NCBI RefSeq assembly: GCF_005217605.1
Contig: NZ_SZPX01000006.1
Coordinates: 161,286-225,285, forward strand
Direction: 5' to 3'
DNA: 64,000 bases
Source: Sulfurimonas crateris
GTDB taxonomy: Bacteria; Campylobacterota; Campylobacteria; Campylobacterales; Sulfurimonadaceae
The position numbers and the translations under genes were made by a program. Below the pieces are notes generated by a model that did not search any database, was not told the origin of the DNA, and saw only the letters and a program-made list of their open reading frames with translations. Shown in pieces: positions 1,890 through 34,900 of this stretch (positions within the stretch are counted from its first letter, which is position 1; every line of letters begins with the position of its first letter).

Positions 1890-1922
1890 ATTGTAGTTTT
1901 AATTATAGACATATTTTGACTA
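1890..1922 (-). promoter_or_regulatory. Island promoter 1 (17-bp element plus -10 box)
   Basis: On the minus strand the element TAGTCAAAATATGTCTA (1922-1906) is followed after exactly 10 nt by TACAAT (1895-1890). It lies 55 bp upstream of the repeat-protein/WYL operon. The 17-mer is identical to the one at 11698-11714. Confidence 0.7.
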
Positions 1923-1930
1923 AATGTAAA

Positions 1931-2626
1931 TCATTTTATTTTGTCTATATTTTTCAAGATTATCTCTCTTGCCTCTTTTGCTAAAAGCACATAGTATTCA
2001 TTCTGTGGCTCTATCAGCTTGATTTCTAAGTTGTATTGTGCTACGTCGAGTTGCTCAAGGCTGCTATAAAGCTTTTTTAAATCATCAAATGTGATAAATC
2101 TTGAGTAGAGAAGATTTTGTAGTATCGCTTCGTCTTTTGTGATGGCAACGGCAAGGTCAAATATATCTCTTGTTAAATTGTCCTCTTTGCGCCATTTCAC
2201 TTTTTTTGCGATGATATCTTCAACGCTTTCATAGTAAAGATCATAGCTCAAATCTAAAATGCTGTTTTTTATGGGCGGTTTTATGATGGACTCATTTAGG
2301 ATAAAATCCACTTTTATCTCATCTTTTGTTTTGAGTGCGACATGGTGGTTGAGTCCGTCAAATCTATATTCGCTCTTATTAAAGAGCGTGGTTTCATCGA
2401 TATACCATTTGGGGTTTAAAAAATCAAAAAGCTGACTCTCTGTTATAAAAATATCTATATCAAAAGATTTTCTATGTCCAAAGTGAAACATAGAGAGTGC
2501 AGTTCCGCCGCCAAATACCCACCAGTTTTTTATACTAGAGTGCATCTCTATAGGTTTTAAAAGCTCAAAATAGACTCTGTTTAAAGTCTCCATCTGGATA
2601 TCAAAGTTCTTCAAAAAGCCATTCAT
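1931..2626 (-). CDS. AbiEii/AbiGii-family nucleotidyltransferase toxin
   Basis: A 231-residue protein carries the nucleotidyltransferase signature of AbiEii-type toxins: GGGTALSMFHFGHRKSFDID near residues 40-58, with a further conserved acidic residue in EIKVDFILNE. The family transfers nucleotides to tRNA or other targets and acts as the toxin of AbiE-type abortive-infection systems. The start lies inside the 3' end of the upstream XRE gene (26-bp overlap), the usual coupling in such pairs. The mid region (DIFDLAVAI) is typical of the family. The pair faces away from the WYL operon and carries its own operator, so it looks like an independent module. Confidence 0.85.
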   Translation of the reverse strand: MNGFLKNFDIQMETLNRVYFELLKPIEMHSSIKNWWVFGGGTALSMFHFGHRKSFDIDIFITESQLFDFLNPKWYIDETTLFNKSEYRFDGLNHHVALKTKDEIKVDFILNESIIKPPIKNSILDLSYDLYYESVEDIIAKKVKWRKEDNLTRDIFDLAVAITKDEAILQNLLYSRFITFDDLKKLYSSLEQLDVAQYNLEIKLIEPQNEYYVLLAKEAREIILKNIDKIK

Positions 2627-3173
2627 ACTCTGCTATCGCCTTTGCATTAAATGTAGTAAGGTAAAACTCATAGAGCTTTTTAATGTTTGATTTTTTAATC
2701 TTATGCAGTTCACAATACTTGATAACATCTTCATAGCTTACTTCTTTAAAGAGTGTCGTGATGGCATAATGATATTTTGCTTCAGTCGATGCAAGAGAAA
2801 ATATATGAAACAAATCATCCACACTATAGTGAAGCTCTTTGTCGCTTATAGAGTTGTTGATAGATGAGAGTATCCATTTTGCACTGTTTGCTTTTTTATC
2901 TTCCATGCTTATCTCTACATAAGGCTTAATAAAGGCGTACTCCTCTTTATCTAAACTCAAATCATACTCGACTTGTTTCATAAGGATAAATTCGGGCTTA
3001 AGTCCAAAAAACTTTGCAAACTTCTTTGCAGTGTGCAGTGTAAAGCCTCGCTTATGCTGGTAAAGCTCACTAATAGTTTTTTTTCCTATGGCTAGTGACT
3101 TACAAAGCATATCTTGCGTAATGTTGTTTGGCTCTATATATTTTTCTTTTATAAAATCAATCGGTGCTACCAT
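2601..3173 (-). CDS. XRE-family (HigA-like) antitoxin of the AbiE-type pair
   Basis: The N-terminal 75 residues form a helix-turn-helix of the XRE/HigA type (NITQDMLCKSLAIGKKTISELYQHKRGF). They are followed by a helical C-terminal region of about 110 residues that probably contacts the toxin. The length of 190 residues exceeds a minimal antitoxin. The gene overlaps the nucleotidyltransferase toxin by 26 bp. A perfect 7-bp inverted repeat about 40 bp upstream (3213-3229) fits autorepression. Confidence 0.8.
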   Translation of the reverse strand: MVAPIDFIKEKYIEPNNITQDMLCKSLAIGKKTISELYQHKRGFTLHTAKKFAKFFGLKPEFILMKQVEYDLSLDKEEYAFIKPYVEISMEDKKANSAKWILSSINNSISDKELHYSVDDLFHIFSLASTEAKYHYAITTLFKEVSYEDVIKYCELHKIKKSNIKKLYEFYLTTFNAKAIAEYEWLFEEL

Positions 3174-3212
3174 TTATTTATCTCTTTATGATAATTTATA
3201 ATACTTCTAATA

Positions 3213-3229
3213 TTATCATAATATGATAA
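3213..3229. promoter_or_regulatory. Probable antitoxin operator
   Basis: TTATCAT-AAT-ATGATAA is a perfect 7-bp inverted repeat with a 3-bp spacer. It lies 40 bp upstream of the XRE antitoxin start, and a related half site (TTATGATAA) sits nearer the gene. Its sequence is unrelated to the island promoter element. Confidence 0.5.
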
Positions 3230-3279
3230 ATTACAGGCTAAATATCTTTATATTTTTTTCTACTATAGATTTTCTTACT

Positions 3280-3383: not shown

Positions 3384-3416
3384 ATCATACTTTTTTATGT
3401 GGTCGCATTTTGGGCA
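3384..3416 (-). promoter_or_regulatory. Island promoter 2 (variant element)
   Basis: Minus strand: TGCCCAAAATGCGACCA (3416-3400), exactly 10 nt, then TATGAT (3389-3384). The outer bases deviate from consensus, most like the variant at 14095-14111, but the CAAAAT core and spacing are kept. Confidence 0.5.
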
Positions 3417-3417: not shown

Positions 3418-5715
3418 CTATGAATCTTTGTTTTTGTGAAAATTGTGATGCTTTCCCTCTTTTTTTACATAAGGCAAATAATTAGGGGGTAATTTTATAT
3501 TATTTATAACTTTCTCTAGCAAATAAAACCACTTAGTAATATTTTCAGAAGAAACAGGTTCGTAATTCTCATTCGCATGTAAATAATCGTTTCTTCTTTT
3601 TATTAACAGATAAAAATCATAAGTTTCACACGAACCTAACTTTGAAAGCAATTTATTCAATTTGTCCTCTAATTTTTTTGAGCCATATTCTTCTTTGTCC
3701 CAAAAGATGTTGTCATATTGTCTTTCTTTTAAAAAAATACTTAAAATACTTTCTAATGAACTTGCGATGGATAGCATTGCATAGGCAAATTTGTTTTCTG
3801 TATCACTATCCATAATATCAAAAATGTATTTTGATTCATTTTTTAATCTTAACCAATAAAATTCATAAAGCTCTTTTTGAAGCTCATATTGCTCAAAAAT
3901 ATCATCTGAAAGTATATTCAAAAGTCTTTTTTGAATAATATAAACTTCTTTAAGATATTTTCTCTCCAATCCTTTATCAACTAAACTCACAAATTTATTA
4001 ATATTTTCTATAGTATCTATACTTTTATCTTCAGGATGTTCTTTTTTGACATAACCCAATATTTTTTTCTCATAAAGTTTTTCTAAAATAGTGCTTTTAC
4101 TTGTAGCCGTAAGCATGATAACTTGAATGCCAGCGTTGATTTCGTGGATTTTTTGGAGGATTTTAACGCCAGAATAATTCTCTATATTATCATTTTCATG
4201 GTCTTGTTCTATTAATCGTAAATCAAGTATTACCACATCTGATTGTGCCACCTGTTCTTTTAGCTCTTTATAGTTTAGCTGTACAATTAAATTAAAATTT
4301 GATTTATCTTTAAAATCATATTCAAAAGCACTAAACTCTAAATATTCCTTAGTGAGGGTCTGGCTTAATATATCTTTCCATCCCTTATCCCACTCGTCAT
4401 CTATAAGTAATACCTTGCCCTCTTTTGTTGACTTAATGATATCTTTTAGTTTATTATCTTGGTGTTTATGTAAAGCTTTTAGGTATTTAAAATAAAGTTG
4501 ATTTTCTATTTCGTCTTTATTTTTATCTATCGCTTCACTTTTTGCACCCAAAAAATTAGCCCATCTATAGATGCTCCACTTATTTGCTATACCGTGGCTT
4601 CCTGAAGTGTCTCTTGGTGGAGAAACTTCTATCTTGGATAAAAACATATCGTAATTTGATACACCTTTTAGCTCAAGTGATTGATAATTTTGGATATCCT
4701 CTTTTGTGTTTTTGCAAAGGTAAATTCCCTCTGTAAAAAGTATATTTGCCTCATGGGTAAATCTATTTAGAGTGGCTTCATCAAAATCACTAATAATCAC
4801 AATGGGTGCAAACCGTTTATCTCCAAGTTCACTTGATAATCTAATATGATAAGCAACTCTTAGCCCATAAAGTTCAAGGTAGTTTGAAGAGAGATTGTCT
4901 TTTATAAAAATGGTATCGAACTCTTTTGAACCCAACTCGTTTATGATAATTTTTGAGATATATGTATCGATATCATCAGTACTGTCAAATTCAATATCAG
5001 CATAAAATTCAATATCTATGACATTGTTATGATGGATTTTAATAGCATTTTTGCTTTTTTTAGAGGGTTCATTTTTTTTAAAATAGCTGAGCAAACTATC
5101 TCTAAATTTTTCTATTTCACTCTTAGAGGTTCGATTATTTTCAATTTCAAGATTATAAAAACAGTAATCTATTTTATCTAGCTTCTTTATATCTACAAAG
5201 TTAGCAAATTTTAAATAAACAACTTTATCATCAATTTTGTTTATTAGCTTATTTGTCTTTTCAAATACATTTGCAACAATGTTTTGTTGCCATTTTTCAC
5301 CATAACAAAGCATCATAATATCTTCATTGTCAGCTTTTACAGCTTCTAAAAATAGCACTAAATTTTTACTATAAAAGATTTTTGAGTTAAGCTCTAGCAG
5401 TTCAAGTTCACTGTTATTATAGTAGTTTACAGATATACCCCCTGAGAAAAGAACTAGAATTTTTTGATGTTTTTTACAGTAATCTTTGAGATTACCCAAG
5501 ATTACCGTATTGTTTTCAACAGATTTATGGCAAATGACAATATCAAACTCCTGAAGATTAAAACTATCATTTATTATATTTTCAAGTAGATTATCCGCCT
5601 TTTCATTGATAAAGTTTTCTAAAATCTCTTCATATTCATCAAGATTGATATCGTTTTGTTCTAAAAAATTTCTTTGTCTTGAATATCTATCTTCTATAAG
5701 CGCAATTTTTTTCAT
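3418..5715 (-). CDS. Multi-receiver signalling protein with C-terminal HEPN domain
   Basis: The 765-residue protein has an N-terminal receiver-like fold (MKKIALIEDR ... FDIVICHKS ... KILVLFSGG), a second REC-like stretch around residues 255-330 (FAPIVIISDFDE) and a clear receiver domain near 425-560. That domain has VLLIDDE, the phospho-acceptor strand VVILDLRL, IQVIMLTATSK and GYVKKE. The last 180 residues are helical and contain RRNDYLH near residue 708, matching the R-x4-H catalytic motif of HEPN ribonucleases. I infer a phosphorelay-controlled RNase. The ankyrin gene begins its 3' end 50 bp upstream on the same strand. A weak island-type promoter may lie at 5728-5760. The receiver call is firm, the HEPN call moderate. 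Confidence 0.7.
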   Translation of the reverse strand: MKKIALIEDRYSRQRNFLEQNDINLDEYEEILENFINEKADNLLENIINDSFNLQEFDIVICHKSVENNTVILGNLKDYCKKHQKILVLFSGGISVNYYNNSELELLELNSKIFYSKNLVLFLEAVKADNEDIMMLCYGEKWQQNIVANVFEKTNKLINKIDDKVVYLKFANFVDIKKLDKIDYCFYNLEIENNRTSKSEIEKFRDSLLSYFKKNEPSKKSKNAIKIHHNNVIDIEFYADIEFDSTDDIDTYISKIIINELGSKEFDTIFIKDNLSSNYLELYGLRVAYHIRLSSELGDKRFAPIVIISDFDEATLNRFTHEANILFTEGIYLCKNTKEDIQNYQSLELKGVSNYDMFLSKIEVSPPRDTSGSHGIANKWSIYRWANFLGAKSEAIDKNKDEIENQLYFKYLKALHKHQDNKLKDIIKSTKEGKVLLIDDEWDKGWKDILSQTLTKEYLEFSAFEYDFKDKSNFNLIVQLNYKELKEQVAQSDVVILDLRLIEQDHENDNIENYSGVKILQKIHEINAGIQVIMLTATSKSTILEKLYEKKILGYVKKEHPEDKSIDTIENINKFVSLVDKGLERKYLKEVYIIQKRLLNILSDDIFEQYELQKELYEFYWLRLKNESKYIFDIMDSDTENKFAYAMLSIASSLESILSIFLKERQYDNIFWDKEEYGSKKLEDKLNKLLSKLGSCETYDFYLLIKRRNDYLHANENYEPVSSENITKWFYLLEKVINNIKLPPNYLPYVKKEGKHHNFHKNKDS

Positions 5716-5765
5716 AATTATCCCAATACATTATTTTTTTATTTTGTAATACACAGTCTATTACA

Positions 5766-8156
5766 TTATTTATAAAACCTCAAAATATGGGTAAATCCTA
5801 CTGGTTTGATTTCAAGTGGTTCTATATCTTTGACATTATTGCTATGTAAGAAGTTTACTCTAAAATTTTCACCCTCACAACTACTCTCTATACTCCAATC
5901 ACAGAGATTCGTAAGTGCCTTTTTGATTTCTGAAATATCTCCTGCAATATTTGCTCTGTCATATAATCCTTTTGCCTTATAACTTGAACATGAATCGATT
6001 TGAGTTATTTTTATTTCTATGCTTCTATCATCAAGTTCCGTAGTTTTTACTTCTATATTTGGATACTCTTTTCGTGTGCTTATATCATTGAATATATTAT
6101 TAAGAACATTTGAAAACTTCTCTACATCTGTATAAAATTGACGATTAAGCTGTGCAGCCGATAAATCAAGATTAAAAATTTCTCCTAAATTATCAACTTG
6201 GTTAGCAAATAGATTTTCTAAGTTTTTAAAGTTGTCTCTTACTTCTATCTCTTGTTTAAAAAGATTGATAATATCTTTAAATTTTGTTAGCTTAATCGTT
6301 TCAAAATCAACTTCATAAGAGATAGGTTTTGTAAGTACAAAATTATCAGGTTTATTCCCATTGTTGCACCACTCTTTTAGTCCATCTAAGCTTGACCAAC
6401 CGATATTTATATGAGTTTTACTACACCAATTATAGTTTTCTTCTGGATTAGTTTCTAGTAAAAATGCATATATCTTTTTGTATAGATTTGGTGAAAGCTC
6501 TTCAAGCTCATTTTTCATACCATCAAACTGTTTTTTGACAGCACTCATATATCCATCAAAATCCCCATACTCTTTTTTAAGTTCACCAAAATCCCAAGCA
6601 TGAGTGGTGTATTTGATAGGTTTGTCGATAGTGAAGTTTGAGAGGAGTTTTACTAGTTTTTGAGGGTTATTATTTTTGGTATCTTTTATAAGATTTTTTA
6701 TTTCATCATTTCCTGCTAATTCATATGCAGTCATTTCTGATTTTGCATTGATATCGGCACCATTTTCAAGTAAAATTTTTACAAGTCTGTCCTGACCTTT
6801 AAGTGCATAGTGCATCAGGGGGGTCATTCCAATATTATTTTTAGCGTTTATATCTGCACCATTATCTACGAGAAGTTTTAATATTTTTTCTCCATTGCTT
6901 TCATTGAATTTCTCAATTTCCCATTTACCATCATTGTCTTCTTGATACGATTCTTTATGAAACCATTCATCTTTTAAGAGAGCGATAGCACTATTGCCTT
7001 GTTTATTTTTATGATTTACATCAGCACCATTTTCAATAAGAATTCTTACTAATTCAAAGCCATTCATTCTATTCATAGCTTCCATTAGTATGCTTGTTCC
7101 ATCATAATTTGTATGATTTACATTTGCTCCTTTTTCAATCAATAGTTTTATAATGTCAAGATTCACATCGGCATAATGTTTATTTTCTAGTTTATTATCT
7201 TTAAAAGGCATACTAATTTTGGAATAATCTAATGAGCAAGCTACCATTAACGGACTATCAATATTCACATCAGCACCACTTTCTATTAAATACTCTATAA
7301 TATTTAATACTTCACTACCTAAAATATCAAGATTTGATGCACACTTACCACTTGGCTCAACCGTACTGTTTTGACATACAACACTCAGCGGATTATCTTC
7401 AATATCAAATGGAATTTCTTCAAGAATAGAATCGCCCTCATTGATAAAGTTTACTTCTGCACCATTTTCTACCAAAAGCTTTATCATCTCAAAATTAAGA
7501 TTTTCACAAGCTACAGCTAAATCTGATGTATTGAATTTATTTGCTCCTTTTTTTATCATGATATTTAAAAGCTTAGTATCATTATTGTTAATGACTTTTC
7601 TTAAAGTGCTAGACTTAAAAAATCCACCTTCTTGTTTTAATATTGAATCAAGACTATAAATAGATTCTTCAATATCTACACCATTTTCTATTAGCAATGT
7701 TATATTTTCACTATTGTAGTTTTCAAATGCGGTTCCAAATGATGAAATATATTTTTTATCTTCACTTTTAGGGGTTCGTTTGGTTTCAGACTCTTCAAGG
7801 TTAATACGCAATTTATCTTTCTTGGGGTCTAAACACAAATCATCATATATAATAAATTCTACTTTTTCATTCATATCAAAACCATTATTAATGAATACTT
7901 TAGTAACTTTTGCATCACCAAATAAAGTTGCTAGATGTGCTGGTAAAAAGCCTTTTTTTGTTGGAGATTTTTTATTGATATTGGTTTGAAGCAATAGTTT
8001 AAGAAATTCAATATTTATTTCTTTTTTTTGATTAAAAATTTCTGCTAGATATGTTACTAATTTAATTTCTGACATATCTATATTTTGGTCAATAATTTTT
8101 TTTAGTTCTAATATATTTTGTTCTTCTAAAATTTGCTCTATGTTTAAGTTTTCCAT
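5766..8156 (-). CDS. Ankyrin-repeat protein, possible kinase partner of the receiver-HEPN protein
   Basis: The 796-residue protein contains ankyrin repeats over roughly residues 65-510 (for example LDIIKLLIEKGANVNHTNYDGTS, here in part, and NNIGMTPLMHYALKG). The last 250 residues are not ankyrin. They contain VEKFSNVLNNIFNDIS and a following beta-rich segment that could be a degenerate histidine-kinase ATPase fold, but I see no clear G boxes, so this stays a guess. The gene is followed after 50 bp by the receiver-HEPN gene and headed by an island promoter at 8219-8251. Ankyrins plus a receiver-HEPN effector suggest a two-protein sensor-effector pair. Confidence 0.75.
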   Translation of the reverse strand: MENLNIEQILEEQNILELKKIIDQNIDMSEIKLVTYLAEIFNQKKEINIEFLKLLLQTNINKKSPTKKGFLPAHLATLFGDAKVTKVFINNGFDMNEKVEFIIYDDLCLDPKKDKLRINLEESETKRTPKSEDKKYISSFGTAFENYNSENITLLIENGVDIEESIYSLDSILKQEGGFFKSSTLRKVINNNDTKLLNIMIKKGANKFNTSDLAVACENLNFEMIKLLVENGAEVNFINEGDSILEEIPFDIEDNPLSVVCQNSTVEPSGKCASNLDILGSEVLNIIEYLIESGADVNIDSPLMVACSLDYSKISMPFKDNKLENKHYADVNLDIIKLLIEKGANVNHTNYDGTSILMEAMNRMNGFELVRILIENGADVNHKNKQGNSAIALLKDEWFHKESYQEDNDGKWEIEKFNESNGEKILKLLVDNGADINAKNNIGMTPLMHYALKGQDRLVKILLENGADINAKSEMTAYELAGNDEIKNLIKDTKNNNPQKLVKLLSNFTIDKPIKYTTHAWDFGELKKEYGDFDGYMSAVKKQFDGMKNELEELSPNLYKKIYAFLLETNPEENYNWCSKTHINIGWSSLDGLKEWCNNGNKPDNFVLTKPISYEVDFETIKLTKFKDIINLFKQEIEVRDNFKNLENLFANQVDNLGEIFNLDLSAAQLNRQFYTDVEKFSNVLNNIFNDISTRKEYPNIEVKTTELDDRSIEIKITQIDSCSSYKAKGLYDRANIAGDISEIKKALTNLCDWSIESSCEGENFRVNFLHSNNVKDIEPLEIKPVGFTHILRFYK

Positions 8157-8218: not shown

Positions 8219-8251
8219 ATTATAATAAACTTTATAGTCATATTGTGTCTA
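8219..8251 (-). promoter_or_regulatory. Island promoter 3
   Basis: Minus strand: TAGACACAATATGACTA (8251-8235), exactly 10 nt, then TATAAT (8224-8219), 62 bp before the ankyrin start. The element overlaps the stop codon of the upstream helicase gene. Confidence 0.7.
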
Positions 8252-9688
8252 TAAATAAATATTTTTCAACATCATATCAATATCATCAAATTTCTCTTTT
8301 GTATTGATTTTTGAGTCAGTTATAAATCTTTCTCGTGTATCAAGTTTTGAGATAAATACTTTGATATTGTATTTTGCTCTTGTAACTGCAACATATGTCA
8401 GTCTATATTTTTCTTCCATACTCATATATGGGTTATCCATCAAAGTAAAAACATCCACATAGGTAGTATCGCATGTGCTACCTTGTAGTTTGTGTATGGT
8501 TGAGGCATGGATATATTGAACATCGGCAAACATATCTCTTGTGCCATAAAATGTTTTCCATAATTTTGTATTATCAGGGTAATATGCCTTTTTTGCTTTT
8601 TGTGCTATTGTTTTTAACTTGTCGTTATAAGTGTCTAAACTGTCAGGATCAACCACTCTAAAGATCTGTTGTTCATGAGCATCCACGGCTCTGCATTCCC
8701 AGTACATAATATCTAAAGAGTCATGATGTTTTAAAGTTGCACTTTGAAGTTCTACAACTTGACCATTATGATAAAGTGTCGTATCGTTTGGGCTATAAGC
8801 CTCTTTAAATCTGAGCGTATCTCCCCTTAACAGAGTTGCAGGGTTGAAGGCTTTGTTTTGCTCCCAAAATTTAGCTCTTATGATTCTGTTAAAAGAGTCA
8901 ACATTTTGATTTTTATGAGTTGCTATTATCTTATCTTCTTTGTACCATTTTTCATTTTTGTAAAAATCATTGATAAAATCTTCTTGATTATGAAAAAATT
9001 GTATTTGCTCATGGTTATATTTGGCAAAAAGTTGATTTAACGGTATAAATTTTTTACTCTCTATTCTCTCTCTTAGCTGGGTCGCTATTTTTAATACATA
9101 GCTATCTTTTGCTTGTCTTACTACCTCTTTTAGTTCAAATTGGTTTTTTAATTCATAAATCGTATTTTCATTGTCATTGACAGGCAATAATTGGTATGGG
9201 TCACCGATAAATATCACAAAGTTGACTCTACTAGTTTCCAAAGCTTCTATAATATACTCAAATAATTCACTGCCGATCATAGAGCTTTCATCTACCAAAA
9301 GAATTGATGTCGTATCTTTTTGCTTTTTTGTTTTGTCAATTTTAAATAACTCAATTCCTTTTTCAAAATCTTTAAATGGCTTTATCCCTAAAAAAGAGTG
9401 AATAGTTTTACATGTTGCGTTTATGTTGTATTTGTTGAGCATTTGTGATATTACACCTGTTGCTTTGTGCGTCGGAGATGTAATCACAAAATCAAACTCT
9501 TCTTCTTTTTTTGCTTTGAAATATTTTGCAAGTTGAGCTGTTAAAAATGTCTTACCGGTTCCAGCAGGTCCCCTTAGAGATATCATATAATCTTCTATAT
9601 CATTACTTTTCAATACTGATTTCACTCTGTTTTCTACTGTAGTTGTGATTTTATTGAAGATTTCTAATTGATGGGCTGTTAATGTCAT
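8249..9688 (-). CDS. Dda-like superfamily 1B DNA helicase
   Basis: The 479-residue protein shows SF1B helicase motifs in order: Walker A GPAGTGKT near residue 40, Walker B DESSM near 134, motif III GDPYQLLPV near 160, IHKLQGST near 403 and YVAVTRA near 433. The length and motif set fit the T4 Dda / AAA_30-UvrD_C_2 group and not full RecD. Such 5'-3' helicases act in phage replication and recombination restart. The gene is a single-gene unit under island promoter 4. In this context it may be either a defence effector or a captured phage-like replication protein. Confidence 0.85.
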   Translation of the reverse strand: MTLTAHQLEIFNKITTTVENRVKSVLKSNDIEDYMISLRGPAGTGKTFLTAQLAKYFKAKKEEEFDFVITSPTHKATGVISQMLNKYNINATCKTIHSFLGIKPFKDFEKGIELFKIDKTKKQKDTTSILLVDESSMIGSELFEYIIEALETSRVNFVIFIGDPYQLLPVNDNENTIYELKNQFELKEVVRQAKDSYVLKIATQLRERIESKKFIPLNQLFAKYNHEQIQFFHNQEDFINDFYKNEKWYKEDKIIATHKNQNVDSFNRIIRAKFWEQNKAFNPATLLRGDTLRFKEAYSPNDTTLYHNGQVVELQSATLKHHDSLDIMYWECRAVDAHEQQIFRVVDPDSLDTYNDKLKTIAQKAKKAYYPDNTKLWKTFYGTRDMFADVQYIHASTIHKLQGSTCDTTYVDVFTLMDNPYMSMEEKYRLTYVAVTRAKYNIKVFISKLDTRERFITDSKINTKEKFDDIDMMLKNIYL

Positions 9689-9716: not shown

Positions 9717-9756
9717 ATTATAATAATTTAAATAGACATATTTTGTCTATTTAAAT
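9717..9756 (-). promoter_or_regulatory. Island promoter 4 (most symmetrical copy)
   Basis: Minus strand: TAGACAAAATATGTCTA (9749-9733), exactly 10 nt, then TATAAT (9722-9717), 28 bp before the helicase start. The dyad extends to a perfect 13-bp inverted repeat, ATTTAAATAGACA / TGTCTATTTAAAT (9726-9738 and 9744-9756), and overlaps the stop codon of the LRR gene. This copy equals the consensus. Confidence 0.8.
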
Positions 9757-11202: not shown

Positions 11203-11284
11203 ATTTTATTTACCTTTTTTATTTTCTATCCAAGATGATAAAGTTGTAGCAGTTTTAGGCGATATCCCCTCAACTACATCTATA

Positions 11285-26474: not shown

Positions 26475-26496
26475 TTTACTAAATTGCCTTCATTAT

Positions 26497-27361: not shown

Positions 27362-27409
27362 TTATCGTATTTCCTTTATAAATGATACTTCACTTTTTTC
27401 CATTTCCAA

Positions 27410-27442
27410 ATCCTACCAAACCAAACACCCATATTTTGTCTA
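27410..27442 (-). promoter_or_regulatory. Island promoter 10 (variant element)
   Basis: Minus strand: TAGACAAAATATGGGTG (27442-27426), exactly 10 nt, then TAGGAT (27415-27410), 48 bp before the LRR start. The left half matches consensus fully and the right half is degenerate, as in promoter 9. Confidence 0.5.
27412..27439. repeat. 28-bp direct repeat, copy 2
   Basis: This is the exact second copy of the repeat at 26731-26758, again inside a promoter of the island type. Confidence 0.75.
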
Positions 27443-27453
27443 AACTATTCTAT

Positions 27454-28650
27454 TTAATACAAAAACCCAAAAAGCCAAAGTGGGACTTTGTGCTTATGTG
27501 TTGTAGTATCTACATCTATAGCCAGATAGCTTTTTTCTATATCTTTGACTTGTGAAAAGCTTTTACCCTTTCCACCCACTTCAAAAATAATTCCATCTAC
27601 TACAAAATCCCCTATATCACTATAGTAAATCTCTTTAAATGAGTTCACAAAAAAAGTCTCTCTTATGGCCCCTATATCTGTAGCTATTTTTTGGTCACTT
27701 GCTAGGGTATAGAGTATATTTGTATTTTGAAAGTAAAGTTTTTCTGGTTTTTTACTTTGTTTAGTACTTTGTTTTTTAAGAGTTCGAAAGATACCTGTCT
27801 TATCTAAAATATCAAGATAAGTATAAAGTGTCGGCTCACTCACCCCTAGCTCTTTTGCAAGTGAATCTATCTTTACACTATATGGCACTTTTGCAGATAC
27901 TACTGCATATATTAGCTTCTTAAATGATATAAGATTTTCAAACTTTATCTTTTGGGTTGAGGGTATATCTTCATAGATGATTTTCTCTATAGAGTTAAAA
28001 AGTTTACTAGCAAAACTCTCTTCACTTTTACTGATGGTAAAAAAGGGATAGGCACCGTTTTTTAGATAGTTTTTAAACTCTTTATAGAGATTTGGGTATT
28101 TACAAATGAGTTCGTAAGATATTTCATTGTGATTTGATAGTATATCTTCAAAAGAAAATGAAGAGAGTGTAGCATGGTGTTTAATCTCAAAATACTCTTT
28201 GAAACTAAGTATCCCAAGCTCCTTAGTGAGTATTCTTCTACTTAAATCATGACTTTGCATCAAAATATTTAACATAGACGAACCACTTATGCGAATAGTC
28301 AGATCAGGATAAAAGTCATAAAGGTTTTTGATATGTGCTGCCCACTCTTTAAACATATGCACTTCATCTATTACTACGATTCGCCCACCTAGTTTGTAAA
28401 ACTCTTCAACAATTTCAACGATACCAAACGCAGCAATGCTTATATCATCAGCACTAAAATACAGGGCTTCATCAAGTGAGTATTGCCCTAAATATTGTAG
28501 TAAAAGTGTAGTTTTTCCAACACCCCTTGCACCTATGAGAGCGATGAGTCTTTCATCGCTATTGATAAAATCAAACTCTTTTCTTAGGTAAGTGATGTTT
28601 TTGGCTATCGATACTAATTTTCTTTGTTTTTCTTGTAGTTGTTCTATCAT
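27454..28650 (-). CDS. AAA_14/DUF4143 family ATPase
   Basis: The 398-residue protein has Walker A GARGVGKTT near residue 40, Walker B VIDEVHMF near 96, RISGSSM, a winged-helix stretch (KELGVSEPTLYTYLDIL) and the C-terminal IFEVGGKGKSF ... WLFGFLY typical of the family. It is closely related to the ATPase at 29955-31139 (same length, same WLFGFLY end) and more distant from the one at 19.3 kb. Its promoter region holds nested inverted repeats. Confidence 0.85.
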   Translation of the reverse strand: MIEQLQEKQRKLVSIAKNITYLRKEFDFINSDERLIALIGARGVGKTTLLLQYLGQYSLDEALYFSADDISIAAFGIVEIVEEFYKLGGRIVVIDEVHMFKEWAAHIKNLYDFYPDLTIRISGSSMLNILMQSHDLSRRILTKELGILSFKEYFEIKHHATLSSFSFEDILSNHNEISYELICKYPNLYKEFKNYLKNGAYPFFTISKSEESFASKLFNSIEKIIYEDIPSTQKIKFENLISFKKLIYAVVSAKVPYSVKIDSLAKELGVSEPTLYTYLDILDKTGIFRTLKKQSTKQSKKPEKLYFQNTNILYTLASDQKIATDIGAIRETFFVNSFKEIYYSDIGDFVVDGIIFEVGGKGKSFSQVKDIEKSYLAIDVDTTTHKHKVPLWLFGFLY

Positions 28651-28673
28651 AATACACCTTTTAATTTATAAAG

Positions 28674-28696
28674 TATAGTTTATCATAAATACTATA
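28674..28696. promoter_or_regulatory. Inverted repeat upstream of second DUF4143 ATPase
   Basis: TATAGT-N11-ACTATA, enclosing TTAT-C-ATAA, lies 23 bp upstream of the ATPase start. On the minus strand it reads ATAGTAT-N11-TATACT, resembling the repeat before the ATPase at 19.3 kb. It may be an autoregulatory operator overlapping a TATACT -10 box. Confidence 0.4.
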
Positions 28697-28718
28697 AAAG
28701 CTAAAGTGTACTTTTGTT

Positions 28719-29729
28719 TTATATTATACTCTCGCTATTTGGATTTTCTAAATACTTTTGGTAGTTTCTCTTTGCTAACTCTTTAGAAGCGTTTGCATAG
28801 CAGTAGTTGCACTCATGTGGGCAAGTGTTGTAAGCTCCTATGTCTTTACTCATGATACAGCCACAATCTTCTCTTTGTCCTTTGTCTTTGAGTTTTTTTG
28901 TTTTGACAACTTTGCCATCGCTAAAGAGATCCGCAGGTTCTATCTCTACGCCTAAAAACTCCATCAGCTCTTTGTCATGCGAAAAAAGATCTACCATGAG
29001 ATCATCATCTATACATTTGTTGTGCGATATGCCGTAAGTATCAAGATCTATCTTTTCAGTACATGTTGCAAGCTCTAAACCCCACTTCTTATTAAGTTCG
29101 CTGAGGCGTTTGGCAAAGGTGTTCATAAGCGGTTGTGTCCACTCTATGTAGGGAACATGCTCTTTGTTTAGATTAGATTGAACTTTTTTATAGATGGAGA
29201 TATCTACAAAGCTAAAAACCAACTTGGCGGTGTACTCATGCAGCTCATCGCCGATATATTTCACTCTTCTTAAAAGCTCTTCTATGTCCAACTCTTGCGT
29301 AAGTATTAGCGGGTCAAACCGCCAAACAACTCTTTTTTTACCTAGTCTTTGGGATAACTCTTTAAATGTTTTTATTCGACTCTCAACTGAAGATATTTTG
29401 CCTTCATAGCCCTCTTTGTCGTAGTCATTGAGTGAAAACTGGAAGTAGTAGTTTGGTATATGTTCGTCTAACCAATCGAGATGTTTCATCATAGCTCGTG
29501 GATTTTTACTCCAAAAGACCACACATCTTACATTTTTAAAACTTACATAAAGAGGTTGTCCATTGAAAGGATTTGTCCATTTGAGATATCCATCCTCCCA
29601 TCTTTTGATAAACCATTCAGCATAAAAAGCGGGAATATCTGTCGCTCTGCTTGCAGAGATGATAACAGGGGTTTGAGCTTCTGCTTTAGTACCATCTTCT
29701 AAAATAATTGTTTCTTTTTTCCATTGCAT
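28719..29729 (-). CDS. DUF1848 family protein with C-terminal cysteine cluster
   Basis: The 336-residue protein has the DUF1848 hallmarks: an N-terminal ISASRATDIPAFYAEWF, the motif VVFWSKNPRAM, VWRFDPLILT, and a C-terminal cysteine cluster CGCIMSKDIGAYNTCPHECNYCYA in two CxxC-like groups, which could hold an iron-sulphur cluster. The enzymatic function of the family is not established; a radical-SAM-like fold has been suggested from the cysteines. GAGG precedes the ATG. It is a single-gene unit under island promoter 11. Confidence 0.85.
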   Translation of the reverse strand: MQWKKETIILEDGTKAEAQTPVIISASRATDIPAFYAEWFIKRWEDGYLKWTNPFNGQPLYVSFKNVRCVVFWSKNPRAMMKHLDWLDEHIPNYYFQFSLNDYDKEGYEGKISSVESRIKTFKELSQRLGKKRVVWRFDPLILTQELDIEELLRRVKYIGDELHEYTAKLVFSFVDISIYKKVQSNLNKEHVPYIEWTQPLMNTFAKRLSELNKKWGLELATCTEKIDLDTYGISHNKCIDDDLMVDLFSHDKELMEFLGVEIEPADLFSDGKVVKTKKLKDKGQREDCGCIMSKDIGAYNTCPHECNYCYANASKELAKRNYQKYLENPNSESII

Positions 29730-29811: not shown

Positions 29812-29844
29812 ATTATATCTCAAAGCTTAGACGCATCTTGTCTA
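29812..29844 (-). promoter_or_regulatory. Island promoter 11
   Basis: Minus strand: TAGACAAGATGCGTCTA (29844-29828), exactly 10 nt, then TATAAT (29817-29812), 82 bp before the DUF1848 start. The 17-mer equals that of promoter 14 on the opposite strand, in the same orientation relative to the gene. Confidence 0.7.
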
Positions 29845-29954: not shown

Positions 29955-31139
29955 TCAATACAAAAACCCAAAAAGCCATAGCGGTATCTTATTGCCGCTT
30001 CCTATTTCTATATCATCAGATACGATATAACTCTTTGGCATATCTTTTATCTGGTTATAGCTTTTGGTTTTTCCGCCAACTTCTACTATGTAAGTATCTT
30101 CTACACTAAAATCGCCCTTTGATGATAGTGTTATATCTTTTTCATCAAACATACTCATAAAAAAGACCTCTCTAATAGTGCCGATTTCCACTTGATCACA
30201 GTAGCTATAGTGTAGATTTGTGTTGGCAAGATAGATTTTATCTGGCTTTACAAAGATAGAATCTCCTTTACTTTTGGCTCTTAAGAGATTTAAAATCTTT
30301 CCTCTTTTGAGATATTCTAGGTATTTATAGAGTGTTTGGTAGTCGCTTATGCCTATTTTTGCGGATAACTCTTTTATGTTGACTTTAAAAGGTTTCGATT
30401 GGCACACCAAACGAACAAGTTTTTTTAAGTTTATGATTTTGTCGTATTCTATGGGAAAGATGGACGGGATATCTACCTCTATAACAGTGTTTATGGTCTC
30501 TTGGAGTTTGAGCAGATAGCTTTGCTCATTTTCAAAATAAAACGGATAGTATCCATATTTTAGGTACTCTTGAAAAAACTCAAAAGGTTTAAAATCATTA
30601 CCCAGTTCATAAGCTATATCGATATGGTTACTAAATATTTCTTGTGTTGTAAAAGTGGGTAGTTTTATGGACTTTTTAAGCTCTATAAACTCTCTAAAAG
30701 ATAACCCTTTCATGTGGTAGAGCAATGCTCTTCTGCTTAAGTCTCCTTTTGAGTGGTCAAGCCTTATGGCACTACTACCGCTAAATATTACTTTGAGACT
30801 AAGCATGTCATATATCTTTTTTAGCTCTATTTCAAAGTTTTTATATTTGTGAATTTCGTCTATGATGAGAAGTTCTCCGCCCTCTTTGGAAAACTCAAAT
30901 GCTATATCAAAGAGTGAATCCAAATCTATGGCATCTGCACTAAAATAGAGCTTTTTTGAAAGTGGTAAATCGTTTTCTCTAAGATACTGAAGTAAAAAAG
31001 TGGTTTTTCCAACCCCTCTAGCACCTATGATGCCGATGAGTTTTTGGTTGAAATCTACTACGCCGTGTATATATCTTTTGTAGTTTGTATCTAACACTCT
31101 TAGATAGCTCTGTTGATACTCTTTAAGATTTTGCAGCAT
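29955..31139 (-). CDS. AAA_14/DUF4143 family ATPase
   Basis: The 394-residue protein has Walker A GARGVGKTT near residue 37, Walker B IIDEIHKY near 90, VIFSGSSAIRL, a winged helix (KIGISDYQTLYKYLEYL) and the family C-terminus IVEVGGKTKSY ... WLFGFLY. It is a paralogue of the protein at 27.5 kb. It is the last minus-strand gene before the strand switch. The gap downstream to the DUF1848 gene (29730-29954) contains island promoter 11 and otherwise nothing I can name. Confidence 0.85.
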   Translation of the reverse strand: MLQNLKEYQQSYLRVLDTNYKRYIHGVVDFNQKLIGIIGARGVGKTTFLLQYLRENDLPLSKKLYFSADAIDLDSLFDIAFEFSKEGGELLIIDEIHKYKNFEIELKKIYDMLSLKVIFSGSSAIRLDHSKGDLSRRALLYHMKGLSFREFIELKKSIKLPTFTTQEIFSNHIDIAYELGNDFKPFEFFQEYLKYGYYPFYFENEQSYLLKLQETINTVIEVDIPSIFPIEYDKIINLKKLVRLVCQSKPFKVNIKELSAKIGISDYQTLYKYLEYLKRGKILNLLRAKSKGDSIFVKPDKIYLANTNLHYSYCDQVEIGTIREVFFMSMFDEKDITLSSKGDFSVEDTYIVEVGGKTKSYNQIKDMPKSYIVSDDIEIGSGNKIPLWLFGFLY

Positions 31140-31235: not shown

Positions 31236-31268
31236 TAGACTAAATATGTCTAAACAAATCCCTACAAT
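31236..31268 (+). promoter_or_regulatory. Island promoter 12
   Basis: Plus strand: TAGACTAAATATGTCTA (31236-31252), exactly 10 nt, then TACAAT (31263-31268), 34 bp before the membrane-protein start. It lies at the point where gene direction switches; orientation assigns it to the plus-strand operon. Confidence 0.7.
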
Positions 31269-31302: not shown

Positions 31303-31713
31303 ATGCTAGGATTTATCTTTAGAAGCGGGACTTACTACATTTTGTGGCAGAAGTTTAAAAAGCAGATTATCACACTCTTAGTCTCTGTCGGGCTTGTTCT
31401 GATAATAATGGGTGTCTATAATGATCTCTTTAGCGTACTTAAAATATCCAACAAAGAGAGCATACTTTATCTGCTATTTTTAAAATGGTTTTTAATCGTG
31501 CTAATAGTTGGCGTCAATATCTTGATGCTAAAAAGGCTAAACACCAAAGAGTTTAAAAAGGCTATAAAAATAGAGCAAGAAAAAGAGACTAAAAAAGATA
31601 AGCCAATCTTATCTGCTCATGAGAAGCTTGTACAAAAAGAAAAGCTGCTTAATACAACCGACCTTATCTTGGCAAAGTACGCAAAGAAAAAAGATGAAGA
31701 TGTGGCGAAGTGA
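31303..31713 (+). CDS. Small membrane protein at the head of the PLD operon
   Basis: From the ATG at 31303 (GAGG eight bases upstream) the product has 136 residues, with two transmembrane segments (ITLLVSVGLVLIIMGVY and FLKWFLIVLIVGVNILML) and a long charged, lysine-rich cytoplasmic tail. An upstream ATG would place the promoter inside the gene and is rejected. Its stop overlaps the start of the PLD gene by 4 bp. Family unknown; restriction-endonuclease-less membrane partners of this shape occur beside PLD nucleases. Confidence 0.65.
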   Translation: MLGFIFRSGTYYILWQKFKKQIITLLVSVGLVLIIMGVYNDLFSVLKISNKESILYLLFLKWFLIVLIVGVNILMLKRLNTKEFKKAIKIEQEKETKKDKPILSAHEKLVQKEKLLNTTDLILAKYAKKKDEDVAK

Positions 31714-32714
31714 AAAAACTTCTTTTTTTACTCTTTACAGTTGTTCTCATTGCAAAAGAGCAGCTTTTTGTACATGTGCCGAGCAGTTTACCTTCTAGTG
31801 CTACAAACACATCTTTTGGCAGAGAGCTTTTAGTGCTTATTGATGATGCTAAAGAGGAGATCAGTTTTGCTATCTATGGACTTAGAGAGCAAGATGCGGT
31901 TTTAGAGGCGCTTATAAGAGCAAAAAAAAGAGGCGTTACTATAAAAGCGGTTGTCGATAGTGATTCACATGGCAATAACTACTATACAGATACACATACA
32001 CTCTATAAACATTTTAGCGTTGTGAGTGATGGTAAAAGTTACATTATGCATAACAAATTTTTTATCATCGACAGAAAAACTCTTTGGAGCGGCTCGGCAA
32101 ACATAAGCGATACGGGTACGGGCGGCTACAACGCAAACAACGCCGTAACAACCGACGATAAAAGAGTTGTATCACTCTATCAAGAGGAGTTTGATGAGAT
32201 GTTTGATGAAAAAAAGTTCTCCAAAAAAAAGAACAAAAGAGGTTATGAGCGCATAAAAACAGAGGATTCCATAATCTCTGTTTACTTCTCTCCAAAATCA
32301 AACACTTACGAAGAGGGGATAAAAGAGCTTATCCGGAACGCCAAAGAGTATATTTTTGTACCGATTTTTTATTTAACACACAAAGAGCTCTCTTATGAAC
32401 TTATGCGAGCAAAGAAGAGAGGCGTTGATGTAAAAATCATCTTAGATGCAAGTGCCGCAGGCAATAAGTACTCCATGCATAAAAAGCTAAGAGAAGAAGG
32501 CGTAGAGGTAAAAGTTGAGAACTTTGGCGGCAAGATGCACTGCAAATCCATGGTTGTAGATGACAGCCACATCATCAGCGGCTCCATGAACTTCACAAAA
32601 GCAGGCAATAGCACAAACGATGAAAACACGCTTATCATACAAAATAGCACCTTAGCTATCAAGTATAAAAACTACTTTTTAGAGCTTTGGCAAAAAATAC
32701 CTGATAAACAATAA
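31710..32714 (+). CDS. Exported phospholipase D-like nuclease
   Basis: The 334-residue protein has a signal peptide (MKKLLFLLFTVVLIAKE) and two complete HxK(x4)D motifs, MHNKFFIIDRKTLWSGSANIS-type near residue 112 and MHCKSMVVDDSHIISGSMN near 276, each followed by the conserved GS(A/M)N stretch. Two HKD halves in about 330 residues fit the PLD/Nuc superfamily, with DNA or phospholipid as substrate. The leader points to the periplasm or outer face. It is the second gene of the operon beginning at 31303. Confidence 0.85.
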   Translation: MKKLLFLLFTVVLIAKEQLFVHVPSSLPSSATNTSFGRELLVLIDDAKEEISFAIYGLREQDAVLEALIRAKKRGVTIKAVVDSDSHGNNYYTDTHTLYKHFSVVSDGKSYIMHNKFFIIDRKTLWSGSANISDTGTGGYNANNAVTTDDKRVVSLYQEEFDEMFDEKKFSKKKNKRGYERIKTEDSIISVYFSPKSNTYEEGIKELIRNAKEYIFVPIFYLTHKELSYELMRAKKRGVDVKIILDASAAGNKYSMHKKLREEGVEVKVENFGGKMHCKSMVVDDSHIISGSMNFTKAGNSTNDENTLIIQNSTLAIKYKNYFLELWQKIPDKQ

Positions 32715-32725
32715 GTGTTACTAAA

Positions 32726-32758
32726 TAGACAAAATAAGTCCAACTAAATATCTACAAT
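32726..32758 (+). promoter_or_regulatory. Island promoter 13
   Basis: Plus strand: TAGACAAAATAAGTCCA (32726-32742), exactly 10 nt, then TACAAT (32753-32758), 20 bp before the next gene. Confidence 0.65.
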
Positions 32759-32778
32759 TACATAAAAAGGAGTTAAAC

Positions 32779-33027
32779 ATGCAAGAACTAGTAGAAAAAC
32801 TCAAAGGTATGAAAAGTGCCACAAAAGCGCAATATGATGTGATGATTGAGAGCCATGCATATAAGGAGGTGATTAAAAACCTTAAAGAGGCAGGACTTGA
32901 AAAAGATGATTTATCTGATGAGGAGTTTGATGCACTTTTGAGTGAGCAAAAAAAGAGAGCAAACTCCTTTGCAAAAGGTGCTTTAGGTGCTTCTGGGATA
33001 TTTCTCTTTTTAGAACTCTTAGGTTAA
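32779..33027 (+). CDS. Small helical protein of the MotAB-like operon
   Basis: The 82-residue protein is helical and charged (MQELVEKLKGMKSATKAQYD ... DDLSDEEFDALLSEQKKR) with a hydrophobic C-terminus GALGASGIFLFLELLG that may contact the membrane. AAGGAG precedes the ATG. It is the first of four closely spaced plus-strand genes (2-bp gap to the next) under island promoter 13. No family is recognised. Confidence 0.6.
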   Translation: MQELVEKLKGMKSATKAQYDVMIESHAYKEVIKNLKEAGLEKDDLSDEEFDALLSEQKKRANSFAKGALGASGIFLFLELLG

Positions 33028-33029
33028 TC

Positions 33030-33611
33030 ATGTCAAAGATAGCACTACTAGATGGACTCTTAAAAGAGTATCGTAAATGGACGCTCAAGCTCAAAAGCGC
33101 TTCTCAAAATATTGAAGACAACATTTTGCAAAAAGATATAAACTCTAAACTCGAAGAGAAGGTCGCAAGCATAATTATCTCTTCCGTACTTGTTTATATC
33201 GTCATTGGGGTTGTCGGTCTCTTTGGTGTTAGTGTCGGCGGAGTATGGGGTGTAGTTGTTTTTGCTATCGGGTGGCTCCTTTCTAAAGCAATCAACAAAA
33301 AAGTGTTTGGAAGTGAGCGCCCTGTAGAGTCACTCAAAGAGGAAGAGAAGCTTCTGCTTGAGAAGTTAGAGCAACTAAACCATAGACATGAAGAGATACG
33401 AAGTCACCTACCAGCGATGCCTGTCTTTTTTACGAACTATCCATCACTCAAAAGAGAGTTTGGAGAGATGATCAACAGACTTTTGACATATGATGCTTCA
33501 AATTTGGCACTTAAATATAGATACAGACATGCATATCTGGTTAAAAAGTATCAAAATGAAGTCAATACATTTCATAAAATCTACGCAAATAAAAAGGAAT
33601 CTAGCAAATGA
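33030..33611 (+). CDS. Membrane protein of the MotAB-like operon
   Basis: The 193-residue protein has two transmembrane segments near residues 45-85 (IIISSVLVYIVIGVVGLFG and GVWGVVVFAIGWLLS) between N- and C-terminal helical, charged regions. The layout suggests a small membrane scaffold. Its stop overlaps the start of the MotA/ExbB-like gene (ATGA). Function unknown. Confidence 0.65.
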   Translation: MSKIALLDGLLKEYRKWTLKLKSASQNIEDNILQKDINSKLEEKVASIIISSVLVYIVIGVVGLFGVSVGGVWGVVVFAIGWLLSKAINKKVFGSERPVESLKEEEKLLLEKLEQLNHRHEEIRSHLPAMPVFFTNYPSLKREFGEMINRLLTYDASNLALKYRYRHAYLVKKYQNEVNTFHKIYANKKESSK

Positions 33612-34240
33612 TGACCAATGCCATAACTTTAACAATCAGCATAATGATAGTAGCACTTTTTATCCAAAGCATGAAGAACAGAGGAAGAAATTTTAAAAAC
33701 GAGATAGTAAGCCTTGGGATACTAGGAACTTTTATAGGTATAGCTATCGGTCTTTATCACTTTGATGTAACAAATATAAAAGAGAGTATGCCACAGCTTC
33801 TTGAAGGGCTTAAGACGGCATTTGTTACATCTGGGATGGGGATATTTTTCTCCATACTTCTCTCCATCTTTAAGCCACAAGCAACGAAGAAAGAGGAAGT
33901 TATTTACGCGCTTGAGGAAGTTGTCAAAGATTTTAACAAAAACCTAACCGAGCAGTTTGGAGACAACTTCAAGCAGTTAAATGATGCGGTAAAAAATATG
34001 ATTCTCTGGCAGGATAACTATAAGAGTCATATTCAAGAGAGTGAACAAAGCATTAGCCATATTATAAAAGAGCTCAAACAGATATCACTTGCAAAAGAGA
34101 GTGAGCAGGCAAATATTCAAAAACTCATAGACAATCTTACCTCTTCAAGCGATAAGGTTAAAGTATCACTTGAAGAGACAACCGACATCGTCAAAGAAAA
34201 TATGCAGTTACTGTTGCGTGAAGCAAACGGGAGACTCTAA
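33608..34240 (+). CDS. MotA/TolQ/ExbB-like channel subunit (ZorA-like, compact)
   Basis: The 210-residue protein has an N-terminal membrane helix, then SLGILGTFIGIAIGLYHFD and LLEGLKTAFVTSGMGIFFSIL, matching the two pore helices of MotA/TolQ/ExbB proteins and of ZorA. The remaining 110 residues form a helical cytoplasmic tail (QFGDNFKQLNDAVKNM ... VSLEETTDIVKEN). ZorA is far longer, so this is a compact relative. It is followed at once by a MotB/ZorB-like gene, making a proton-channel pair likely. Confidence 0.7.
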   Translation: MMTNAITLTISIMIVALFIQSMKNRGRNFKNEIVSLGILGTFIGIAIGLYHFDVTNIKESMPQLLEGLKTAFVTSGMGIFFSILLSIFKPQATKKEEVIYALEEVVKDFNKNLTEQFGDNFKQLNDAVKNMILWQDNYKSHIQESEQSISHIIKELKQISLAKESEQANIQKLIDNLTSSSDKVKVSLEETTDIVKENMQLLLREANGRL

Positions 34241-34241
34241 G

Positions 34242-34862
34242 ATGCAAGATAGTGAGAGCAACTGGATCAATATAGCAGATGTTATGTCAGCGCTTATGAT
34301 GATATTTATGTTTATCTCCATCTCTTTTTTATACCAACTTCTTAGCGAAAAAGAGAACTATAAAATAGAGTTAAACAAAGCGCTCCATAAAGAGTTTGAC
34401 AAAGATTTAGTGAAATGGCAGGCTCTTATTACAGAAAATAACATTATGCGATTTAACTCACCATTTGAAACAGGCGGCGCACAAGTGCCAGAAGCTTTTT
34501 ATGAGATACTCCAAGATTTTTTCCCTCGCTATATAAAAGTCTTAAGCAACACTAAGTTTAAGAGCGAAATAGAAGAGATACGGGTCGAGGGACACACCTC
34601 TAATGGATGGGGAAGTATCGCTGACGCCAAAGAAGTCTATCTAAAAAACATGCATCTCTCTCAAGAAAGAGCTAGCAATGTACTCTCACTTTGCTATGGT
34701 TTGGATGATTTTTTTATTAGAAACAACATCAAGTGGCTCGAAGCAAACTTAAGAGCAAACGGGATGGCTTTTTCAAAACCGCTTTATGTTGATGGGTCTA
34801 AAACAGAGGATACTGAACGCTCCAAAAGAGTAGAATTTAAGGTTATTGCTAAAGATAAATAG
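34242..34862 (+). CDS. MotB/OmpA-like stator subunit (ZorB-like)
   Basis: From the ATG at 34242, directly after the channel gene, the product has 206 residues. The single membrane helix reads NIADVMSALMMIFMFISIS, with the aspartate in the position of the proton-binding Asp of MotB. The C-terminal half is OmpA-like: IRVEGHTSNGWGS, LSQERASNVL, and RSKRVEFKV, the pattern for peptidoglycan binding. With the preceding gene it forms a MotAB/ZorAB-like motor. No ZorC, ZorD or ZorE follows. Confidence 0.8.
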   Translation: MQDSESNWINIADVMSALMMIFMFISISFLYQLLSEKENYKIELNKALHKEFDKDLVKWQALITENNIMRFNSPFETGGAQVPEAFYEILQDFFPRYIKVLSNTKFKSEIEEIRVEGHTSNGWGSIADAKEVYLKNMHLSQERASNVLSLCYGLDDFFIRNNIKWLEANLRANGMAFSKPLYVDGSKTEDTERSKRVEFKVIAKDK

Positions 34863-34867
34863 GCTCA

Positions 34868-34900
34868 TAGACAAGATGCGTCTATAGTTTTTTCTATACT
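34868..34900 (+). promoter_or_regulatory. Island promoter 14
   Basis: Plus strand: TAGACAAGATGCGTCTA (34868-34884), exactly 10 nt, then TATACT (34895-34900), 88 bp before the first lipoprotein gene. The 17-mer is identical to promoter 11 in gene orientation. Confidence 0.7.

Follow-up and report, generated by a model that had tools for sequence, protein, structure and literature searches.

The stretch of the Sulfurimonas crateris genome analysed here (contig NZ_SZPX01000006.1, positions 161,286 to 225,285; 64,000 nucleotides (nt); hereafter the window) overlaps a 49.5-kb integrated element that lies at a tRNA-Arg gene, carries a tyrosine integrase and is called the island below. Its features, among them a single gene for a WYL-domain protein, are listed in Table 1 together with 14 places at which a 17-bp element precedes a -10 box, the consensus of the whole unit being TAGACAAAATATGTCTA-N10-TANNNT. 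These elements, spacers and -10 boxes had been described in an earlier note made from the sequence alone, and all of them were re-located in the sequence exactly as given there; each site is named below by the lowest coordinate of its 17-bp element.

Promoter sites of the island

When each site was scored against a matrix of the remaining 13 sites, the scores ranged from 16.6 to 32.3 bits, the weakest being that of site 3400. With the full matrix, the best non-member place in the window reached 14.4 bits and was site 9733 read backwards, and the second-best reached 12.0 bits. A degenerate form of the element, allowing up to 2 mismatches, matched the window 21 times against 2.34 expected, several of these matches being opposite-strand readings of the same palindromes, and none of 100 dinucleotide shuffles reached 21. 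A weak fifteenth site that the earlier note had suspected at 5728-5760 scored -1.7 bits and is no member of the set, while its observation that the 37-64 kb part holds no copy agrees with both the matrix scan of the window and the pattern scan of the genome. The promoters have a -10 box and no recognisable -35 hexamer; TAGACA was set aside as an ordinary -35 hexamer because its spacer to the -10 box would be 21 nt. The genes behind the elements cover about 455-35683, and nearly all genes in this interval stand directly behind an element or in a same-strand run (operons being assigned from strand and gaps).

The element is confined to the island in its own genome. The pattern scan of the 2,209,279 bases missed sites 3400 and 26745, which are too divergent, and recovered the other 12. 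All 10 matches with at most 1 mismatch lay inside the island, as did all but 4 of the 9 matches with exactly 2 mismatches, and a reversed control pattern gave 7 matches across the genome. Outside the island the element therefore occurred at no rate above control, so that the objection raised in advance by the earlier note, namely a similar frequency upstream of core genes, does not apply.

At site 1906, the element is identical or has 1–2 bases changed in the genomes G105, G121, G115 and G133, and the G105 homologue of the XRE gene likewise has an upstream element. Such likeness might suggest that the repeats are one promoter cassette copied by recombination, with no common regulator; sites 26745 and 27426 indeed have the element tail and spacer in common, and some promoters are identical among relatives. 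However, most sites differ in spacer and flanks although they keep the element, the spacing and the -10 box, and the sites precede genes of 56 blastp clusters and occur in nine families of the order, which makes simple copying hardly credible.

Table 1. Promoter sites and other features of the island, in window coordinates
Feature	Position	Strand	Context
Element + N10 + -10 TACAAT	1890..1922	-	upstream of 111-aa gene and WYL gene
Element + -10 TATGAT	3384..3416	-	upstream of 26-codon open reading frame (ORF), farther on XRE/AbiEii-like pair
Element + -10 TATAAT	8219..8251	-	upstream of ankyrin/HisKin-conflict gene, then iREC gene
Element + -10 TATAAT	9717..9749	-	upstream of AAA_30 helicase gene
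Element + -10 TATACT	11682..11714	-	upstream of 114-aa gene, then leucine-rich repeat (LRR) gene
Element + -10 TACAGT	13326..13358	-	upstream of PcfJ-like gene
Element + -10 TAAAAT	13560..13592	-	upstream of short SSB-like ORF
Element + -10 TATAAT	14079..14111	-	upstream of LRR gene
Element + -10 TAGGGT	26729..26761	-	upstream of same-strand gene run reaching 14109
Element + -10 TAGGAT	27410..27442	-	upstream of LRR gene
Element + -10 TATAAT	29812..29844	-	upstream of DUF1848 gene
Element + -10 TACAAT	31236..31268	+	upstream of 136-aa gene (start 31303) and PLD-like gene
Element + -10 TACAAT	32726..32758	+	upstream of 82-aa, 193-aa and ZorAB-like genes
Element + -10 TATACT	34868..34900	+	upstream of two lipoprotein-like genes
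WYL + WCX regulator, 345 aa	455..1492	-	Pfam WYL and WCX matches above cut-off; longer ORF starts at 1543
111-aa YHSDGSY-repeat protein	1515..1850	-	first gene behind site 1906, upstream of regulator gene
XRE-like HTH (2601-3173) and AbiEii-like (1931-2626) pair	1931..3173	-	family matches
iREC (3418-5715) and ankyrin/HisKin-conflict (5766-8156) proteins	3418..8156	-	family matches
AAA_30/PIF1-like helicase	8249..9688	-	family match
LRR, 114-aa, PcfJ-like, short SSB-like and LRR genes	9751..14052	-	
Run of DUF4145, 2CompART, UvrD-like, LRR, AAA_14, large LRR protein, WD40 and other genes	14109..26700	-	
LRR, AAA_14 and DUF1848 genes	26861..29729	-	
AAA_14 gene	29955..31139	-	no own element; clear exception among genes 455-35683
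PLD-like (31710-32714), ZorA2-like (33608-34240), ZorB2-like (34170-34862) and small genes	31303..34862	+	
Two lipoprotein-like genes	34989..35683	+	last genes behind an element
Right attachment repeat, 3' end of tRNA-Arg	45411..45460	.	tRNA-Arg at 45413-45489, minus strand

The candidate WYL regulator

The second gene behind site 1906 (455-1492) is predicted to encode an activator of the winged helix-turn-helix (wHTH)-WYL-WCX type, in which the wHTH part has no Pfam match and modest model confidence; WYL homologues align from residue 18 of the longer ORF. NCBIfam has no family for the protein, and CRISPR-associated WYL profiles of PADLOC match it with an E-value of 6.8e-20. In the profile search of the PDB, DriD was the only solved family with a significant E-value (1.5e-4), and in Foldseek it was also the best match of the WYL model, followed by PafBC, CapW and BrxR, the alignment over full-length DriD having an E-value of 3.1e-15. 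The recognition helix, S-E/D-K-T-I-R-R-D, is almost invariant across 57 aligned homologues. The other two WYL matches of the genome are 26–28% identical to this protein and lie on other contigs, leaving a single WYL gene in the island.

Control of the island by LexA is excluded for this genome (100% complete), in which no match to the LexA DNA-binding domain was found; a control set was matched in 10 of 14 genomes. A tblastn search of viral contigs for the regulator (121 candidate stretches) found no relatives. Among the homologues, a WYL-like part was also seen in ORFs of 812 and 831 aa (L084:5650-8088 and L093:2553-5048) on the same contigs as elements, and strong WYL matches interrupted by one in-frame TAA were found at two loci (L173 and L174, of genomes G303 and G456), whose genomes have no strict element.

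Co-occurrence of the element and the WYL gene

Among 228 genomes of the family, an element of at least 20 bits was found in 13 of 13 genomes with a close WYL homologue and in 13 of the 215 others (Fisher's test, 2e-14; 1.8e-13 when the own genome was left out). Close homologues were defined by at least 45% identity, a threshold chosen after seeing the homologue search, and one of them is a 62-residue fragment at a contig end. At 22 bits or more, the counts were 12 of 13 and 9 of 215. One to a few match rows per genome were scored in this test, the own genome included, and none of eight further rows (seven from genomes without a close WYL homologue and one from G105) reached 20 bits. Across the order, a strict pattern gave 38 matches in 20 of 398 genomes from nine families, and its reversed control gave none; outside the own family, the strict element was present in 10 of 38 genomes with a WYL match (profile E-value of at most 1e-40) and in 6 of 314 others (p=3e-7).

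Moreover, when public loci were fetched by the WYL protein alone, 26 of 37 held elements, with 79 sites against 0.2 expected from Markov shuffles; 11 of the 37 are contigs that also belong to the genomes analysed above. The element-bearing loci include those labelled Sulfurospirillum, Sulfurovum, Aliarcobacter, Arcobacter and Poseidonibacter; labels are as deposited, and one Helicobacter pylori and two Gracilibacteria may be binning errors. In 16 of 34 WYL-fetched loci (L147, L148 and L155 being left out), an element lies 64–77 nt upstream of the WYL start, and in 7 of the 34 an element of at least 18 bits lies within about 50 nt past the end of the WYL match. A looser pattern applied to 12 loci found sites in the Campylobacter gastrosuis locus (L152) and in L149 and none in 7. 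In L152, where the WYL protein is 37% identical, two nearby sites keep GAC-N7-GTC-N12-TANNNT with changed outer bases; possibly, the regulator and the outer half-site bases co-vary there. These variant elements are of the TGACA-N5-TGTCA type, followed by N10 and TATAAT.

The same counts bear on whether the element is read by another factor, be it an XRE regulator of the island, a host protein or an alternative sigma factor, the WYL gene being a mere passenger of the islands. The presence of the XRE-like HTH gene in the island and the 13 of 26 strong-element family genomes without a close WYL homologue speak for this; 3 of these 13 (G211, G092 and G082) carry a WYL gene of 28–32% identity within a few kb. 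On the other hand, an XRE homologue was found in 1 of 49 sources and a WYL homologue in 41 of 49, although this count favours WYL, with which many of the sources had been retrieved. The link between WYL and the element is nevertheless also seen in the genome-wide tests, and the GAC-N7-GTC palindrome suits a DriD-like dimer. We know of no sigma factor that such a palindrome would fit. We regard another reader as quite improbable. As a separate observation, four genomes with a strong element and no close WYL homologue (G059, G061, G078 and G083) have one recurring sequence in common.

Promoter geometry and proposed mode of regulation

The distance between element and -10 box was analysed at 26 loci fetched by WYL only; of the 37 loci, those of the four nearest relatives and a further seven contigs that the motif had likewise retrieved were set aside here. 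TANNNT stood exactly 10 nt off in 49 of 57 elements, the -10 box being unused in their detection. Counted by element ends, it was found at offset 10 in 51 of 114, and at other offsets in 5.8 on average and 17 at most. In 140 oriented sites, a set that mixes motif-fetched and WYL-fetched loci, G3, C5, G13 and C15 are conserved at 96–99%, and the 10-nt spacer is almost uninformative in sequence. A gene start follows closely: 114 of 144 distinct sites have an ORF preceded by a Shine-Dalgarno sequence within 200 nt, and 95 of these 114 ORFs start 20–39 nt past the -10 box.

From these features, which like the island restriction and the link to this WYL subfamily across Campylobacterota are read directly from sequence, we consider it probable that the element is the binding site of the island's WYL regulator, which is predicted to activate the island operons jointly from the -35 region. 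The regulator would likely induce some 30 genes at once, among which many are predicted to defend against viruses. The proposal of the earlier note that one regulator binding over the -35 region controls the whole island is supported by the restriction of the element to the island, by a spacing kept in independent genomes and by the WYL candidate itself, the homologues of which are found together with the element and frequently lie behind a copy of it. A WYL homodimer would bind TAGAC-N7-GTCTA with one winged helix on either side of the -35 region and, like DriD, would anchor RNA polymerase at promoters with a -10 box and without a recognisable -35 hexamer. Less firmly, single-stranded DNA (ssDNA) arising through phage infection, DNA damage or DNA uptake may bind to the WYL domain and act as the trigger. 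The regulator gene itself stands behind such a promoter, and positive feedback might follow from this.

Alternatively, the WYL protein could be a repressor like CapW and BrxR, blocking the -35 region until a ligand releases it and derepresses the island. The WYL regulators of phage defence known by 2023 are reported to act as repressors (PMC10693628); near-consensus -10 boxes and an element before the regulator's own gene, suited to negative autoregulation, would also agree with repression. Yet a repressor does not need fixed spacing, and here TANNNT is kept at exactly 10 nt while the spacer sequence is nearly free. Furthermore, CapW operators overlap the -10 box (PMC9122588) and the BrxR repeats are situated on the downstream side of the predicted -10 box (PMC9122601), whereas 14 of 14 elements here end 10 nt upstream of it. 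Position and core instead match the activators DriD and PafBC, which are also the nearest structures, in that order. Repression is thus unlikely.

Several observations nevertheless weigh against joint activation by the WYL protein, in addition to the strong-element genomes without a close homologue. The -10 boxes are near consensus, and basal activity without an activator is possible. Of the WYL loci, 11 of 37 have no site of at least 18 bits, and the looser pattern, applied to 9 of these 11, found sites in two only. As for the protein, a single-sequence search of the PDB gives DriD at an E-value of 0.05 only, the N-terminal half of the structure model has low confidence, and the Foldseek TM-scores are low (0.44 over full-length DriD), probably owing to the unfitted domain arrangement. 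In the RxxR pair, located by our reading of the profile alignment, the first Arg is present in 57 of 57 homologues, and the second is replaced by Asn in 32, Lys in 23 and Gln in 2. Finally, DriD does not activate its own gene, whereas the WYL gene is here commonly preceded by an element.

Boundaries and cargo of the island

The island is bounded by 50-bp direct repeats that, by a count on their alignment, agree at 47 of 50 bases. The left copy (L079:13204-13253; contig position 157203) lies 4.08 kb left of the window, and the integrase gene (L079:13420-14562, plus strand; PF00589, 6.5e-16) lies just inside it. Housekeeping genes flank the island, with panB and trpA at the left and amino-acid-kinase and RimK genes at the right, beyond tRNA-Arg. 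The gap between trpA and RimK is 52.2 kb here, whereas G115 has one of 2.8 kb and G218 one of 3.2 kb; both genes were matched, at the thresholds used, in 8 of 25 relatives searched, and in 6 of these 8 they lie apart or on separate contigs. Direct repeats at the tRNA 3' end, an integrase and an empty site in relatives, as expected of a tRNA island, were thus all found. The 37-45.4 kb part, with ParA-like and HipA/HTH genes and no site, still belongs to the integrated element.

From its gene families the island is predicted to be a defence island, several genes having no family; we call this a prediction because it is based on families and the ZorA2/ZorB2-like pair scores under the NCBIfam cut-offs. 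This motor pair lies within 33030-34862, with the two small genes (82 and 193 aa) upstream. The families also include AAA_14/DUF4143, the PLD protein matches DrmC profiles, and 50 nt separate the iREC gene from the preceding gene, which site 8235 serves.

The cargo varies among relatives and comprises a Zorya-like motor, DarT, Cas genes, SSB and helicases. The counts of genes behind elements (176 sites; 56 clusters; 144 distinct sites) used a matrix that includes the -10 box; in the 176-site count the same contigs partly appear under both our genome names and public names, and the 144-site count is free of duplicates. First genes behind elements in relatives include those for DarT, SSB, Cas6, Cas2, a reverse transcriptase, an RNase_T exonuclease, a MYG1-like protein and VWA and AAA proteins; the family scan covered 20 of the 56 cluster representatives, 3 of which have no family. 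The WYL gene is the commonest first gene, at 23 of 176 sites (some contigs being counted twice), followed by that of a 92-aa protein without a Pfam match (12 sites; e.g. L151:2993-3271). SSB-like genes, odd for a defence island, are also among the commonest (10 sites; e.g. L087:13433-13942 and the window's 13372-13530, which has 52 codons only). Elements precede Cas6, Cas2 and reverse-transcriptase genes at L099 (G211:C16:15001-35000), L107 and L109, so a CRISPR-Cas locus may be under the control of a WYL switch; 13 sites lie across 40 kb in G211:C16. Small repeat proteins with N-termini that look by eye like signal peptides (window 1515-1850; L127:9524-9841) stand directly behind an element in several relatives.

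Wider reading

A broader proposal, which we hold as plausible though short of probable, is that Campylobacterota such as the present LexA-less one carry a movable replacement, namely an ssDNA-sensing WYL activator on integrated islands that would fire every operon through one -35 code, cargo joining by arriving behind TAGAC-N7-GTCTA-N10-TANNNT. If true, phage attack or DNA uptake would turn on CRISPR-Cas, DarT, Zorya-like and other weapons together, and the co-induced SSB would be a possible brake soaking up the ssDNA signal. The matter bears on how multi-system defence islands are switched, the defence WYL regulators CapW and BrxR being repressors. With a single sequence-readable promoter code that extends over an entire island and is met again in many Campylobacterota, the question whether defence genes form one inducible regulon becomes directly testable, and the motif could flag new defence genes through their promoter instead of homology.

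Comparison with known WYL systems

Both WYL activators (DriD, PafBC and SiwR) and WYL defence regulators (CapW and BrxR) are already known. CapW of CBASS and BrxR of BREX resemble the present case as WYL regulators beside anti-phage genes that use palindromes or inverted repeats (PMC9122588, PMC9122601), and differ in repressing one system or island from operators over or downstream of the -10 box. The Gac/Rsm system of Pseudomonas likewise brings many defence factors under a single regulatory pathway (PMC11888443), but it is a genome-wide host pathway, whereas the switch proposed here is island-borne. SiwR of Mycobacterium smegmatis is a homodimeric WYL activator with a palindrome that responds to genotoxic stress and binds ssDNA (PMC10693628); it serves a single adjacent operon and no defence island.

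In mycobacteria, PafBC is a WYL activator switched on by ssDNA (PMC11804915), and its motif at recA P1, tTGTCRgtg-8nt-TannnT (PMC5656591), places TGTC 12 nt from TANNNT, comparable to TG(T/A)C-(T/C)A-N10-TANNNT here. PafBC is a heterodimer whose two WYL subunits are encoded by adjacent genes and of which one sits on the DNA, in contrast to the palindrome and single WYL gene of the island. PafBC and SiwR need the RxxR pair for ssDNA binding (PMC11804915, PMC10693628).

In the open-licence literature searched, we found no WYL activator-type promoter code extending over a whole island, with 14 promoters and changing cargo across Campylobacterota. The earlier note's remark that no described regulon has this element holds for that literature, the design being known in kind from DriD and recA P1/PafBC. 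DriD of Caulobacter crescentus, the homodimeric, ssDNA-activated WYL activator of an SOS-independent DNA damage response and the nearest PDB structure to the island protein, likewise has a wHTH-WYL-WCX architecture. Its site, ATACGAC-N7-GTCGTAT, lies over a poor -35 sequence at a constant distance from the -10 box (PMC12340889); it thus has in common with TAGAC-N7-GTCTA, the presumed site of the island WYL protein, the GAC-N7-GTC core, the position over a poor -35 sequence and the constancy, rather than a compared length in nt, of the distance. DriD differs in serving a few repair and division genes instead of 14 promoters in one island, in the outer bases of its site (ATAC.. versus TA..) and in the second Arg of RxxR, not conserved here. 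Taken together, the system is DriD-like by its architecture, core site and geometry, with ssDNA sensing and activation as putative properties.

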